The translations under genes and the position numbers were made by a program. A stretch of DNA of 64,000 bases. It comes from Mammaliicoccus vitulinus (GTDB taxonomy: Bacteria > Bacillota > Bacilli > Staphylococcales > Staphylococcaceae). The DNA is taken from NCBI RefSeq assembly GCF_029024305.1, contig NZ_CP118974.1, positions 2,077,069-2,141,068 of the forward strand, in the 5' to 3' direction. The notes under the pieces are model-generated. The model saw only the letters and a list, made by a program, of their open reading frames with translations. It made no database searches and was not told the DNA's origin. Positions 5,261 to 53,822 of this stretch are shown here, piece by piece. Numbering within the stretch: position 1 is the first letter of the stretch; each line of letters opens with the position of its first letter.

Positions 5261-5303
5261 AAAAAAAGCATCCGGGACTATAATAGTCTCGGATGCTTTT
5301 TTA
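5261..5303 (+). terminator. clpP terminator
   Basis: AAAAAGCATCC-GGGACTA pairs with TAGTCTC-GGATGCTTTTTT, a long stem with a T-run on the plus strand, beginning five bases after the clpP stop. A-rich on its left side, so it could also work in reverse. Confidence 0.85.
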
Positions 5304-5401: not shown

Positions 5402-5476
5402 AGCGCTGACTCCTGCGGGAACAGCATGATTCGAAGACTACAGGCTGAGAACATGCCCGCGGAAAGCATGGCATAA
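5402..5476. repeat. Divergent copy of the GC-rich palindromic intergenic element
   Basis: GC-rich stretch in an AT-rich gap with the layout GCGCTGAC, GCGGGAA, then GACTACAGGCT, then CATGCCCGCGG and AAGCATGGC. It matches the order of motifs in the three longer copies near 13.75, 23.04 and 53.35 kb (GTGCTGACGCCC, GACTACAGGCTCGA, AAGCATGC), but its flanking CGATTTTGT ends are missing. No coding potential seen; the rest of 5304-5531 holds nothing I can assign. Confidence 0.6.
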
Positions 5477-13621: not shown

Positions 13622-13745
13622 AGGGTTCACCTCTAGGTTAATATATGTTAATTCTAATGAACTTTAACCATAACTGCAATCATTATAAATATTAGATCGA
13701 TATCTTTAAAATATAAAAGAAGTTGGGATTTTTTATAAAACCATG

Positions 13746-13840
13746 CGATTTTGTTCGTGCATGCTTGCCTAGGGTATGATTCGAGCCTGTAGTCGCGCGC
13801 GGCATACTTTTCCCCCGGGCGTCAGCACTTCACAAAATCG
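13746..13840. repeat. GC-rich palindromic intergenic element, copy B
   Basis: About 95 bp with ends CGATTTTGT and ACAAAATCG (9-bp perfect inverted repeat). The interior is GC-rich and self-complementary: GTGCATGCTTGCC against GGGCGTCAGCAC, with CGAGCCTGTAGTC in the middle. Same family and orientation as the copy at 53.35 kb, opposite to that at 23.04 kb. Non-coding. Confidence 0.85.
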
Positions 13841-13897
13841 TGAGGAATATTCATTTTACTTATATTTTTTTCATTTGTTCTTTTAAGAACATGATAA

Positions 13898-14216
13898 ATG
13901 TTGCAAGACTAACCAAACAAGCAACATAGAACGTCCGAATGTTGCAAGACTACCTAAACAAGCAACATAGAACGTCTGTATGTTGCAAGACTGACTAAAC
14001 AAGCAACATAGAACGCCTCTATGTTGCAAGACTAACCAAACAAGCAACATAGAACGCCTCTATGTTGCAAGACTGATCAAACTAGCGACATAGAACGTCC
14101 GAATGTTGCAAGACTACCTAAACAAGCAACATAGAACGTCCGAATGTTGCAAGACTGACCAAACTAGCGACATAGAACGTCTGTATGTTGCAAGACTTAC
14201 TAAACAAGCTACATTC
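13898..14216. repeat. Tandem array of eight 41-bp hairpin units
   Basis: Units begin at 13898, 13939, 13980, 14021, 14062, 14103, 14144 and 14185, exactly 41 bp apart; the last is degenerate at its end. Each has ATGTTGC and GCAACAT as a 7-bp inverted pair around AAGACTNNCNAAACAA, then AGAACGYC. Units 5 and 7 read GCGACAT, which still pairs as RNA through one G-U. Preceded by TGTTCTTTTAAGAACA. Single copies occur at about 22.95 and 53.29 kb. The 13.63-14.36 kb gap holds only this array, the palindromic element, the terminator and the boundary motif. Confidence 0.92.
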
Positions 14217-14282
14217 AGACCCCGACCTCTCTCACCAACCTTATCCAATTACAAAATCGTTACAAATATCTAATTTCATATA

Positions 14283-14328
14283 AAAAAGAGCAGAAATTCA
14301 ATTTTAAAAATGAATTTCTGCTCTTTTT
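14283..14328 (-). terminator. Terminator after the SHOCT-like gene
   Basis: AAAAAGAGCAGAAATTCA and TGAATTTCTGCTCTTTTT form an 18-bp perfect stem around a 10-base loop. Nearly the same sequence recurs as the 46-bp palindrome at 36.9 kb. Followed at 14337-14353 by AGGACATTTATGTCCC, a short palindromic motif also found beside other terminators here. Confidence 0.88.
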
Positions 14329-14364
14329 AAGTTTTCAGGACATTTATGTCCCAACCTCAATTAA

Positions 14365-22794: not shown

Positions 22795-22950
22795 ATGTAA
22801 CACCCCATTCATTATATTATCAAGTATATTTTATCATGATATTCAGAATTTCGACATCCTTTTGTGCGAAAATTCACAAAATAAATTGTGTCTATTTATA
22901 TATAAAGAAAAAGGTTTGGGACATAAATTCCAACTTAAAATATACAGACG

Positions 22951-22996
22951 TTCTATGTTGCTTGTTTAGTCAGTCTTGCAACATTTATCATGTTCT
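22951..22996. repeat. Single 41-bp hairpin unit, inverted, with conserved linker
   Basis: On the minus strand this reads ATGTTGCAAGACTGACTA then AACAAGCAACATAGAACGTC, one unit of the 13.9-kb array, preceded by the same TGTTCTTTTAAGAACATG linker that joins array and palindromic element at 13.84-13.90 kb. The whole block 22950-23137 is thus an inverted copy of about 13746-13938. Confidence 0.88.
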
Positions 22997-23038
22997 TAAA
23001 AGAACAAATGAAAAAATATTATAGAAATGAATATCCTC

Positions 23039-23137
23039 CACGATTTTGTAAAGTGCTGACGCCCGGGGGAATAGTATGCGTGAGAGACTACAGGCTCGAA
23101 CCATACCCCCAGGCAAGCATGCACGAACAAAATCGTG
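23039..23137. repeat. GC-rich palindromic intergenic element, copy C (11-bp inverted ends)
   Basis: 99 bp with perfect ends CACGATTTTGT and ACAAAATCGTG. The GC-rich interior is GTGCTGACGCCCGGGGG, GACTACAGGCTCGAA, CCCCCAGGCAAGCATGCAC, so it can fold into one long hairpin. No transposase-like ORF and no obvious target duplication seen. Orientation is opposite to copies B and D. Confidence 0.88.
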
Positions 23138-23150
23138 AGATTTTAAAATA

Positions 23151-23199
23151 AAAAAGATTTCTTCACTAGGCTTAACTAATGAAGAAATCTTTTATTTTG
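23151..23199 (-). terminator. prfB terminator
   Basis: AAAGATTTCTTCACTAG and its near complement CTAATGAAGAAATCTTT form a long stem. The same hairpin plus its downstream TATTTTGAGAATGG sequence recurs, inverted, at 53.2 kb, so this terminator is itself a dispersed repeat. Confidence 0.82.
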
Positions 23200-23235
23200 A
23201 GAATGGTTCTTTATGTCGCAGACTCCATTTTTTTA

Positions 23236-36884: not shown

Positions 36885-36916
36885 AAATAATCCGAGACAT
36901 CAATGTCTTAGAAATT

Positions 36917-36963
36917 AAAAAAGAGCAGAAATTCATTTGTACAAATGAATTTCTGCTCTTTTT
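36917..36963. terminator. 46-bp perfect palindrome acting as bidirectional terminator
   Basis: AAAAAGAGCAGAAATTCATT...AATGAATTTCTGCTCTTTTT is a continuous perfect palindrome with T-runs on both strands. It separates convergent pepT and glxK. Almost the same arms occur at 14283-14328. Confidence 0.9.
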
Positions 36964-36979
36964 AATATCTGTTCGTTAT

Positions 36980-45906: not shown

Positions 45907-46051
45907 GAGTAAAATCCACCTTTCATGCTATTACACTCATTATAAACAATAAATCCATTTTAAATTCAATAAATAATGAAAAATATGTTAACTTTTTAAT
46001 GCCTATCAATTATAAAAGATCATTTAAGACGAAGTGTGCAAACAATATAGT

Positions 46052-46096
46052 AAAAAGAGCGTAAACTCTTATTTTCGAAGAATTTACGCTCTTTTA
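46052..46096 (-). terminator. nrdF terminator
   Basis: AAAAGAGCGTAAA and TTTACGCTCTTTT, 13-bp stem, followed at 46107-46122 by AGGATGTTAATGTCCT. The same pair of motifs recurs at 53.52-53.59 kb. Confidence 0.82.
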
Positions 46097-46127
46097 TATT
46101 AATTTAGGATGTTAATGTCCTAAACTT

Positions 46128-47099
46128 TTATTTTTCATCAAAGACGAAGTCGTCATCTGTAAGTGATTCTACATTTAATGCTATTACGTAACCGTCACCT
46201 TTAACACTGAAGAAGTCATGGTTCTTAGTGCTTGTATTTAAAGCATTCTCTATAATCGGGTTGAATGCTTTTTCTTCATAGTAAGGTTCGAATCCTAAGT
46301 TTGCTAATGCTTTGTTAGCATTATATGTTACATAGTTCATTACGTCATTCGTTAATCCTATTTCATCGTACAACATTTTAGTATATTCGTATTCGTTTTT
46401 ATATAGTAAATCAAGCATACGATACATTTCTCTATCAGCTTTAATTTGTTCGTCTTGTGAAAGTTCATTTTTCAGACTTTGTGCATCTAATCCTGTAAAT
46501 ACACCATGAATCGATTCATCTAATAATATTTTACGAATAATTTCACCTGAAGTTGTCATACGACCTTGTCCAGCTAAATATAAAGGATAATAGAAGCCTG
46601 AGTAGAATAAGAATGTTTCTAAGAACACACTTGATACTCTAGCCATATATTGATCATATACAGAAGCCTCTTTAGTCCACAGTTTATGGTAGTTTCCTAC
46701 AATTATATCTGATTTGTATTTTAGATGTGGTTCTTCTACAACCCATGTATCTAATAGTTCGTTTGTTTCGCTAGATGGTAACAATGTTGTGAATATATGA
46801 GAATAACTTTTCGCATGTACTTGTTCCATCATACCCATAAATGAATACACAGCTTTTTTACGTAAATCGCTCGTGTGCATCATTATTAGTGGCATTCCAT
46901 CATCTGCTTGATGTGTATCTAAACCTGTAAGTCCTGCCAATGCTTTTTTAAATGCATTTTTTTCAGGTTCTGTAAGTGTTTCCCAACTTGCTATATCTTT
47001 AGATACTTTAAATTCTGATTCAACCCACATTTGTGAGATGTTTTGACGCCAGAACATATTTGTCATATCTTCTTGTGTATTCCAATTTACTGCCTTCAT
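46128..47099 (-). CDS. nrdF: Ribonucleotide reductase class Ib, beta subunit
   Basis: 323 aa. Carries the metal-tyrosyl radical cofactor for NrdE. Metal ligands appear in LAGLTGLDTHQADDG, MMEQVHAKSYSHIF (Glu and His ligands) and EIIRKILLDESIHGVF; the radical Tyr is in the VHAKSYS helix context. NrdF uses a dimanganese or diiron site activated by NrdI. It is 27 bases after nrdE and closes the nrdIEF operon. Confidence 0.96.
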   Translation of the reverse strand: MKAVNWNTQEDMTNMFWRQNISQMWVESEFKVSKDIASWETLTEPEKNAFKKALAGLTGLDTHQADDGMPLIMMHTSDLRKKAVYSFMGMMEQVHAKSYSHIFTTLLPSSETNELLDTWVVEEPHLKYKSDIIVGNYHKLWTKEASVYDQYMARVSSVFLETFLFYSGFYYPLYLAGQGRMTTSGEIIRKILLDESIHGVFTGLDAQSLKNELSQDEQIKADREMYRMLDLLYKNEYEYTKMLYDEIGLTNDVMNYVTYNANKALANLGFEPYYEEKAFNPIIENALNTSTKNHDFFSVKGDGYVIALNVESLTDDDFVFDEK

Positions 47100-53168: not shown

Positions 53169-53180
53169 AATTTATCAAGA

Positions 53181-53199
53181 GACTGGGACATAAATATCC
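53181..53199. repeat. Left boundary motif of the 53-kb intergenic repeat block
   Basis: GACTGGGACATAAATATCC. Its inverted partner GGATGTTAATGTCCCAGTC is at 53575-53593 (17 of 19 positions match). Related GGGACATAAAT motifs are at 22.92 and 14.34 kb. Confidence 0.75.
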
Positions 53200-53202
53200 A
53201 TT

Positions 53203-53254
53203 CTCAAAATAGAAAATCTCTTCATTAGGTAAGCCTAGTGAAGAGATTTTTTAT
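53203..53254 (+). terminator. Terminator after POT transporter 1 (repeat-family hairpin)
   Basis: AAAATCTCTTCATTAGG and CCTAGTGAAGAGATTTT form a 17-bp stem with one mismatch, then TTTT. Inverted near-copy of the prfB terminator at 23.15 kb. Confidence 0.82.
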
Positions 53255-53262
53255 ATTTTAAT

Positions 53263-53366
53263 ATCTTACGATTTTGAAAGTGCATGCTGTATGTTGCAAG
53301 ACTTACCAAACAAGCAACATAGAACGCCCGTATGTTTTAAAATCTTACGATTTTGAAAGTGCATGC
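53263..53366. repeat. 25-bp direct repeats flanking a single 41-bp hairpin unit
   Basis: The same 25 bases, starting ATCTTACGATTTTG and ending GTGCATGC, occur at 53263-53287 and 53342-53366. Between them lies one 41-bp unit (ATGTTGCAAGACTTACC ... GCAACATAGAACGCCCG). The left end of the palindromic element has therefore been duplicated around the unit. Confidence 0.85.
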
Positions 53367-53444
53367 TTGCCTGGGGGTATGGCTCGAGCCTGTAGTCTCT
53401 CACTCATACTATTCCCCCGGGCGTCAGCACTTTGCAAAATCGTG
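53347..53444. repeat. GC-rich palindromic intergenic element, copy D
   Basis: About 98 bp. Ends ACGATTTTGAAAGTGC and GCACTTTGCAAAATCGT are inverted repeats differing by one inserted base. The interior TGCCTGGGGGTATG pairs with CATACTATTCCCCCGGGC around CGAGCCTGTAGTC. Same orientation as copy B. Confidence 0.87.
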
Positions 53445-53517
53445 GAGAATATTATAGTGAAATTAGTTAAAATCTAAAGTACATAAATTGGTTTAGCTTT
53501 AATGGCTACCAATATAA

Positions 53518-53566
53518 GAAAAAGAGCGTAAATTCCTATTTATTCAAGAATTTACGCTCTTTCTTG
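53518..53566. terminator. Repeat-family terminator hairpin with right boundary motif
   Basis: AAAAAGAGCGTAAATTC and GAATTTACGCTCTTT form a 15-bp stem, nearly the nrdF terminator. Followed at 53575-53593 by GGATGTTAATGTCCCAGTC. Confidence 0.72.
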
Positions 53567-53627
53567 TTAATCTAGGATGTTAATGTCCCAGTCATCTTTT
53601 TGCTATTTATCATGTGGATCCTGACTT

Positions 53628-53822
53628 GATAAATTCACGGATAAATCGCACCAAGACTCAAACAATATTGTGCGTTTTTGGTAAATTTTGGATAAAACGC
53701 ACGAAGACTCAGAAGATATTGTGCGTTTCTGATAAATTCACGGGTAAAACGCACGAAGACTCAGAAGATATTGTGCGTTTCTGATAAATTCACGGGTAAA
53801 ACGCACGAAGACTCAGAAGACT
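53628..53822. repeat. Tandem array of 52-bp hairpin units (about 3.8 copies)
   Basis: Units start near 53628, 53680, 53731 and 53783. The last full copies read GATAAATTCACGGGTAAAAC then GCACGAAGACTCAGAAGATA then TTGTGCGTTTCT. Each contains AAACGCAC and GTGCGTTT as an 8-bp inverted pair. Earlier copies are more diverged. The remaining sequence to 54016 is AT-rich and holds the promoter region of the second transporter. Confidence 0.9.

Follow-up and report, generated by a model that had tools for sequence, protein, structure and literature searches.

The GC-rich palindrome described here from Mammaliicoccus vitulinus is best explained as a conserved folded module of IS1182-family (IS1272-like) elements, most of its copies being MITEs situated in gene-end terminators; we give this overall explanation a probability of about 0.8. 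It would account for a high-copy repeat family in Mammaliicoccus and its relatives, and IS1182 elements would gain a conserved non-coding part that is open to testing. Furthermore, three subjects kept apart in the sources consulted would become linked, namely IS1272-like elements, the small RNA tsr24 and the dru repeats of SCCmec.

The palindrome occupies 99 bp (23039-23137) of the window, by which we mean the whole analysed stretch of 64,000 nucleotides, and has perfect 11-bp ends, CACGATTTTGT and ACAAAATCGTG. Both position and ends had been given exactly by an earlier sequence-only reading of this DNA. That reading had however regarded the 11-bp inverted ends as the ends of the element, while they actually form the base of a hairpin and the limits of the mobile unit lie near 22913 and 23226. 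The core GACTACAGGCT was found four times in the window (5436 +, 13784 -, 23086 + and 53387 -) against 0.32 matches expected with one mismatch allowed; none of 100 shuffles reached four, and a fifth core was absent even with one mismatch. The further copies proposed by the same reading were recovered by alignment, with 87-93% for the copies at 13.7, 23.0 and 53.4 kb and approximately 70% for the diverged copy at 5402. The suggested folding from nearly end to end was borne out as well, since the 99-nt strand folded as RNA gave z = -6.5 and -7.4 on the two strands and none of 200 shuffles equalled either. The following features were assigned in the window:

5402-5475, + strand: palindrome of subfamily B; a terminator-like hairpin adjoins at 5271-5301, and clear unit ends were not found
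13718-14358, - strand: mobile unit C, with a terminal repeat at 14341-14358, a 41-bp array and palindrome A; the other terminal repeat is decayed
13746-13842, - strand: palindrome A of unit C
13897-14214, - strand: 41-bp tandem array of unit C, 7.8 copies, with the inverted repeat ATGTTGC...GCAACAT in each unit
22913-23226, + strand: mobile unit B (MITE), with left terminal repeat GGTTTGGGACATAAAT and right terminal repeat TTTATGTCGCAGACTCC; absent in seven of seven congeners
22934-23030, + strand: one 41-bp repeat copy, then a transposase-gene-like remnant (IS query positions about 1250-1297), assigned by sequence likeness; transposase similarity was seen beside other copies (for example 700830-700904 and 247562-247608)
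23039-23137, + strand: palindrome module of subfamily A, with the loop ACTACAGG at 23087-23094
23150-23199, no strand assigned: terminator-like hairpin with A-run and T-run, downstream of prfB (prfB on the - strand)
53178-53593, - strand: mobile unit D, in which the two terminal repeats are present as GACTGGGACATTAACATCC and TTTATGTCCCAGTCTC
53348-53444, - strand: palindrome A of unit D

Two further terminator-like hairpins of the window (36896-36968 and 46038-46133) resemble ends of IS1182-type elements and are without palindrome; they are possibly decayed unit ends.

In the complete genome (2.65 Mb, two contigs) the exact core GACTACAGGCT was present 127 times, and the reversed control gave no match. 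The genome-wide count that had been proposed as a check thus yielded many further copies, and these occurred in both orientations as claimed (67 + and 60 -). For detailed study 110 copies were taken, those of the window included. Subfamily A comprised 97 of them, with the layout CGATTTTG ... GTGCTGACGCCCGGGGGAATAGTATG ... GACTACAGGCT ... CATACCCCTAGGCAAGCATGCAC ... CAAAATCG, and subfamily B the remaining 13, with the layout GCGCTGACTCCTGCGGGAACAGCATG ... GACTACAGGCT ... CATGCCCGCGGAAAGCATGCGC. The gene context was based on greedily chosen ORFs of at least 70 aa and not on the annotation. According to this crude ORF caller the claimed intergenic placement holds, short and probably spurious ORFs overlapping 19 of the 110 copies. 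At least one gene 3' end adjoined 109 of 110 copies (binomial p ~ 1e-12 against an assumed 25%, with crude ORF calls), and a divergent gene pair with two gene starts was found once. The second contig (4440 bp) is a small plasmid identical to tet(K) plasmids of M. vitulinus and several Staphylococcus species.

Five IS copies of the same genome, 99-100% alike over the query and with more than 1 kb in common, carried the palindrome upstream of the transposase gene (tnp). This gene has 545 codons with domain matches to DDE_Tnp_1, DDE_Tnp_1_6 and DUF772, the domain set of IS1182/IS1272; the family name follows the annotation of relatives. In an alignment of four of the five copies the likeness ended at GGTTGGGACATAAATGTCC on one side and at GGGATGTTAATGTCCCAGCC on the other. 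The palindrome is located between the left IS end and the promoter of tnp, and its strand is the one opposite to that of the gene. A complete copy is composed of terminal repeat, terminator-like hairpin, palindrome (antisense strand), tnp promoter and gene, terminator and terminal repeat. Plasmids from M. sciuri and S. equorum showed the same order, and the adjoining genes there are annotated as 'IS1182 family transposase'.

The mobile units measured approximately 0.2-0.6 kb and their terminal repeats (TGGGACAT...) matched those of the five resident IS1182/IS1272-type copies, which are the transposase with matching terminal repeats that the sequence-only reading had advised to look for. Since terminal repeats and palindrome are common to both, we regard the units as MITEs of the resident IS, and their high copy number without a transposase gene (127 cores against five full IS) is in line with this. 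The earlier label 'MITE-like' was correct in that non-autonomous mobile units and a matching IS exist in the genome. It did not apply to the 99 bp themselves, which, judged from the sequence, are an internal module of mobile units and no whole element, their inverted ends not being terminal repeats.

The plainest unit without tnp was about 220 bp in size and consisted of terminal repeat, hairpin, palindrome and terminal repeat. Some palindromes were flanked by a 41-bp repeat and a remnant resembling the transposase gene. A second type of unit, the A+B composite, had palindromes of both subfamilies, one at each end, and different terminal repeats (CAGACTGTCGACAAAGTC). Both terminal repeats were found in 23 of 97 A units with up to two mismatches and not in the other 74; of the 13 B copies, 7 were without clear unit ends. 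Decay or a composite structure is thus common among the units.

A search for palindrome-free units gave nine exact terminal-repeat matches below 0.94 Mb with no listed palindrome within 0.7 kb, and one further match at 878.5 kb, adjoining a diverged palindrome, was included. A diverged or partial palindrome was carried by two of these ten sites (L346 and L344), and the other eight gave no palindrome-sized BLAST match. At L339, L340, L342, L343 and L347 the terminal repeat adjoined a terminator-like hairpin, and the matches at L338, L341 and L345 seem to be due to chance. The existence of units or ends that lack the palindrome weakens the assumption that it is strictly required.

The palindrome was co-inherited with one clade of transposases. 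In a tree of 23 IS1182-type transposases (21 from genomes, two from plasmids) it was present in 14 of 15 members of this clade, 13 being detected by script and L179 by eye, and in none of the eight members of the other; L181 groups with the palindrome clade without carrying it. In nine intact genome copies the core ended 145-151 nt before the tnp start, one broken copy deviating, and this spacing was kept even though the palindrome-bearing transposases are often only about 62-64% identical to the resident protein. Such a fixed position relative to tnp in one clade makes it improbable that the palindrome is an independent small mobile repeat, a MITE or REP of its own, which entered IS1182 elements. 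Two further findings point in the same direction: in several genera the core of the terminal repeat stands at constant distances on either side of the palindrome, as described below, and no RAYT was found in the genome. Independence would be favoured by the unrelated basal stems that carry the palindrome and by its presence in Bacilli that showed no link to IS1182.

The label 'REP-like' in its strict sense was not sustained. A Y1/RAYT transposase (PF01797) was not detected in this genome by a search that was positive in 5 of 14 control genomes. Furthermore, the element is larger and differently built: the conserved cap alone comprises about 65 nt, exceeding the REP unit of 20-40 bp (excerpt of PMC3733652). 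Many intergenic copies, a bulged hairpin and strand-specific features are shared with REP/RAYT systems, but here the element is longer and carried by a DDE-type IS, and REP/RAYT was rejected. BOX/RUP/SPRITE, bcr1, EFAR and other Firmicutes MITEs are likewise multi-copy, foldable, intergenic and non-autonomous; none is reported as IS1182-derived in the excerpts of PMC10969869 and PMC3733652, the comparison with them being one of descriptions.

STAR elements possess a GC-rich core, TTGGGGCCCC. This core had no match in the window with one mismatch allowed, and identity with STAR was rejected. A literature search with the letters of the core gave nothing relevant, judged from titles and abstract starts. 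Titles and abstract starts on staphylococcal palindromic repeats, IS1182 MITEs and Bacilli repeats did not name the palindrome family either, which is no proof of absence.

A DNA query detected relatives in 35 of the 101 genomes examined from the family, representing two of five genera. The core pattern matched 61 of 157 genomes from the order, representing 6 of 14 genera. Among the matches listed, the named genomes belonged to Staphylococcus, Mammaliicoccus, Jeotgalicoccus, Salinicoccus, Lacicoccus and Aliicoccus, and Psychrobacillus, Solibacillus, Ureibacillus, Lysinibacillus, Caryophanon and a few single hits were listed as well. The genera with the palindrome presumably represent three Bacillales families. 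The terminal-repeat core TGGGACA was present within 330 bp of 45 of 137 listed cores compared to 176 of 2360 random windows, and it occurred at fixed distances (-89/+65 in Salinicoccus, about -114/+112 in Psychrobacillus, Ureibacillus and Lysinibacillus). It was near 20 of 33 listed cores from named non-staphylococcal Bacillota genera and a MAG, 6 of 28 from Staphylococcus and 2 of 10 from S. massiliensis. The exact 7-mer was absent from all 12 listed Mammaliicoccus matches, which we attribute to divergence. In two Salinicoccus-type copies (L322 and L325) transposase genes with 55-56% identity adjoin the palindrome.

A looser half-pattern matched 35 of 299 genomes from the class, representing 18 of 119 genera, with no match in the control, and these relatives within the Bacilli have a longer apical arm. 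An IS1182 gene was near none of 20 such loci, and the terminal-repeat core was found at 3 of 21 sites. One wider Bacilli family, GACTCCTNNGGGARYAGC (L358-L377), has a longer GC-rich apical arm and reaches up to 47 sites in one genome (G405); a carrier was looked for at these loci and not found. A 3388-bp contig of Pseudoclavibacter sp. RFBB5 carried a staphylococcal-type IS1182 with the palindrome and is probably contamination.

The sites of insertion had a common character. The outer flanks of the 23 two-ended A units were mutually inverted-repeat at 5.78 of 8 bases compared to 4.96 in shuffled flanks, and none of 1000 shuffles equalled this value. Copies of one hairpin flanked five of six A+B composites with both ends found, as read by eye from printed flanks. 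The site of unit B, between a cytochrome-like gene and prfB (names taken from sequence context), was without the unit in all seven congeners, and the orthologous spacer measured 50-184 bp compared to about 350 bp here; a hairpin at this site was clear in six congeners and doubtful in the seventh. An inverted-repeat target that is replaced, or a hairpin that is duplicated, together with empty sites, is the signature of insertion by a MITE of an IS1182-family IS, and it was found here.

IS1272 replaces inverted repeats without target duplication (excerpt of PMC5678879). The transposase domains, the terminal inverted repeats and the insertion into hairpins with replacement of the inverted repeat are likenesses of the present units to IS1272/IS1182. 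Different are the whole MITE family with a conserved internal palindrome and the duplication of the hairpin by A+B composites; an alternative pathway sketched for IS1272 would duplicate a stem-loop, and the excerpt gives it as an alternative only (PMC5678879). The replacement of inverted repeats by IS1272 might also suggest that the palindrome is a mere hairpin favoured for IS insertion. This is highly improbable and was refuted for the IS copies seen here, in which the palindrome lies intact within the terminal repeats and is neither split nor duplicated around the IS.

Of the 97 A copies, 64 had a terminator-like hairpin no more than about 150 bp away, compared to 6 of 116 control windows. 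Many units therefore appear to supply a terminator at a place where one was perhaps destroyed. Taken together, the MITEs keep terminal repeats and palindrome without the transposase and would be moved in trans by the resident IS. The units land in terminator hairpins at gene 3' ends, the hairpin being replaced or duplicated, and often bring a terminator-like hairpin of their own. Insertion would then be nearly neutral, and approximately 130 copies could be tolerated. It would be a case of a MITE that spreads by replacing terminators while carrying one.

We consider it rather unlikely that the palindrome itself is a terminator or insulator which stops or blocks transcription on both sides of the element. 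Divergent gene pairs are avoided (1 of 110), and the Salinicoccus-type copies L322 and L325 have a terminator-like basal stem with A- and T-runs; both observations speak for such a role. However, a separate terminator-like hairpin usually adjoins the A copies, and the invariant loop ACTACAGG and the bulge ARYAG are left unexplained.

In 48 diverse sequences this loop and the bulge A-R-Y-A-G were nearly invariant, while the stems changed in concert. Two-sided changes occurred in 12 of 15 pairs (118 cells), none of 500 shuffles was as high and the value was far above that of slid versions. After 17 of 212 distinct cores had been left out for poor pairing, the remaining 195 contained 26 G.T and 33 A.C pairs (p = 0.43), without the excess of G.U over A.C on the RNA strand that is expected of a functional RNA, so nothing here favours RNA over DNA. 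Tandem mismatches of the apical stem on the GACTACAGGCT strand were GA/GA 122 times and TC/TC never. The sequences are related, and covariation and mismatch counts are therefore not counts of independent events.

For the role of the palindrome we tentatively prefer, at slightly below even chance, a cis structure of folded DNA (cruciform or single strand) that would be read by the transposase of this clade. The preference is due to the retention of the palindrome in units without tnp and to wobble pairs not being favoured. The next choice ranks little lower, on account of tsr24 and of the asymmetry between the strands, and we hold it to be possible with a smaller chance: the palindrome would be the stable body of a tsr24-type small RNA, transcribed outward over the tnp start and limiting transposase synthesis, and the MITEs would retain it by descent. 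Both may be true. Against the cis role, the MITEs could have kept the palindrome simply by descent.

The units of the window gave no match when the thresholds set by Rfam were applied. In a permissive search four IS copies from other Staphylococcaceae exceeded the cut-off of 50 bits for RF02577 tsr24, namely L172 and L173 (102.9 each), L175 (133.4) and L178 (112.5). The matches were on the GACTACAGGCT strand, antisense to tnp, and the modelled RNA starts approximately 12-16 nt inside tnp, which supports the antisense reading. Below the cut-off were L137 (41.8), L136 (32.4), L139 (27.0) and L179 (23.2 bits), and more distant palindromes matched part of the model with 24-46 bits. A relative of the palindrome has consequently already been catalogued as a small RNA of S. 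aureus. The statement that the family could not be matched to a named one is thus superseded in part, since IS-borne relatives correspond to tsr24, though the window copy scored 12.0 bits, far below the cut-off of 50.

Fold, bulge, stem-loop frame, strand and place in the IS are the same in tsr24, whose consensus loop is ...GAAGACCGAGGCUGAG... compared to ACTACAGG here. The Rfam line describes tsr24 as a small RNA only and names no repeat or IS. In S. aureus N315, antisense RNAs occur in pairs over the 5' parts of transposase genes (excerpt of PMC2873960), which also speaks for the antisense reading; tsr24 is not named in the excerpts of PMC2873960 and PMC5826253. The GA pairs, all on the + strand (122 to 0), fit RNA as well as folded DNA. 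Against RNA stand the lacking wobble bias, the low score of the window copy and a fold kept in more than 100 copies without tnp. Pairing of the loop with the transposase gene was rejected, as no complement of the loop was found in the tnp gene of L113. Positions 132-297 of L173 match Rfam RF02894 S35 (srn_0335), which may be another repeat of similar kind; S35 is entered as a repeated region in the excerpt of PMC5826253.

By analogy, the Bacilli-wide hairpin, formed by one strand with a fixed 5-nt bulge and with either the invariant loop ACTACAGG or, beyond these families, a longer AC...GG arm, might be an attC-like cis signal read by the transposases of one IS1182 clade, the same strand being transcribed as tsr24. 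We regard this combined form as unlikely. If true, the signal would make pairs of terminal repeats mobile, and one fold would serve mobility and self-control.

The S. aureus plasmid pRM27 (L139:2080-2600) carried, between ugpQ and IS257 beside mecA, 40-bp repeats followed by an A palindrome with the core GACTAATGGCT, then a terminator-like hairpin and TTAGGATTTATGTCCCAAGCTC. The published dru primers (excerpt of PMC3636274) were mapped on this plasmid: druGF and druGR flank the region, and the palindrome contains the sites of druR2 (2557-2576) and HVR1 (2516-2534, one mismatch). On this mapping the dru typing repeats of SCCmec, which are used for MRSA strains, are situated in a unit of the palindrome family. 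As in the units described here, the repeats lie between palindrome A and terminal-repeat sequence, but the sequence of the repeat unit is unlike the 41-bp and 52-bp arrays of the window. The excerpt of PMC3636274 describes dru as a typing locus only. A part in a transposable element is described neither there nor in the excerpts of PMC5402963 and PMC6243372, in which the word dru is absent.

In M. fleurettii DSM 13212, the two ends of the dru region were matched on two contigs, with 97% and 99% identity. A complete dru-like unit (89% over 634 bp) with about nine repeats was located downstream of a luxS-like gene, and at least 12 other contigs carried dru-like arrays. Among the matches listed for the other seven genomes, the likeness to the dru region consisted mostly of palindrome and hairpin. 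The dru unit at the mec region and the many contigs with dru-like arrays fit M. fleurettii as a source of the mec-dru segment, and variation of dru would become a matter of MITE repeat dynamics.

Three unrelated tandem arrays with a period of approximately 39-52 bp adjoin palindromes (13897-14214, 53627-53820 and B-unit loci such as L036 and L048). Each of their units contains an inverted repeat, these being ATGTTGC..GCAACAT, TTTATCA..TTGATAAA and AACGCAC..GTGCGTT. The dru repeat, with AGCAAT..ATTGCT, shows the same build.
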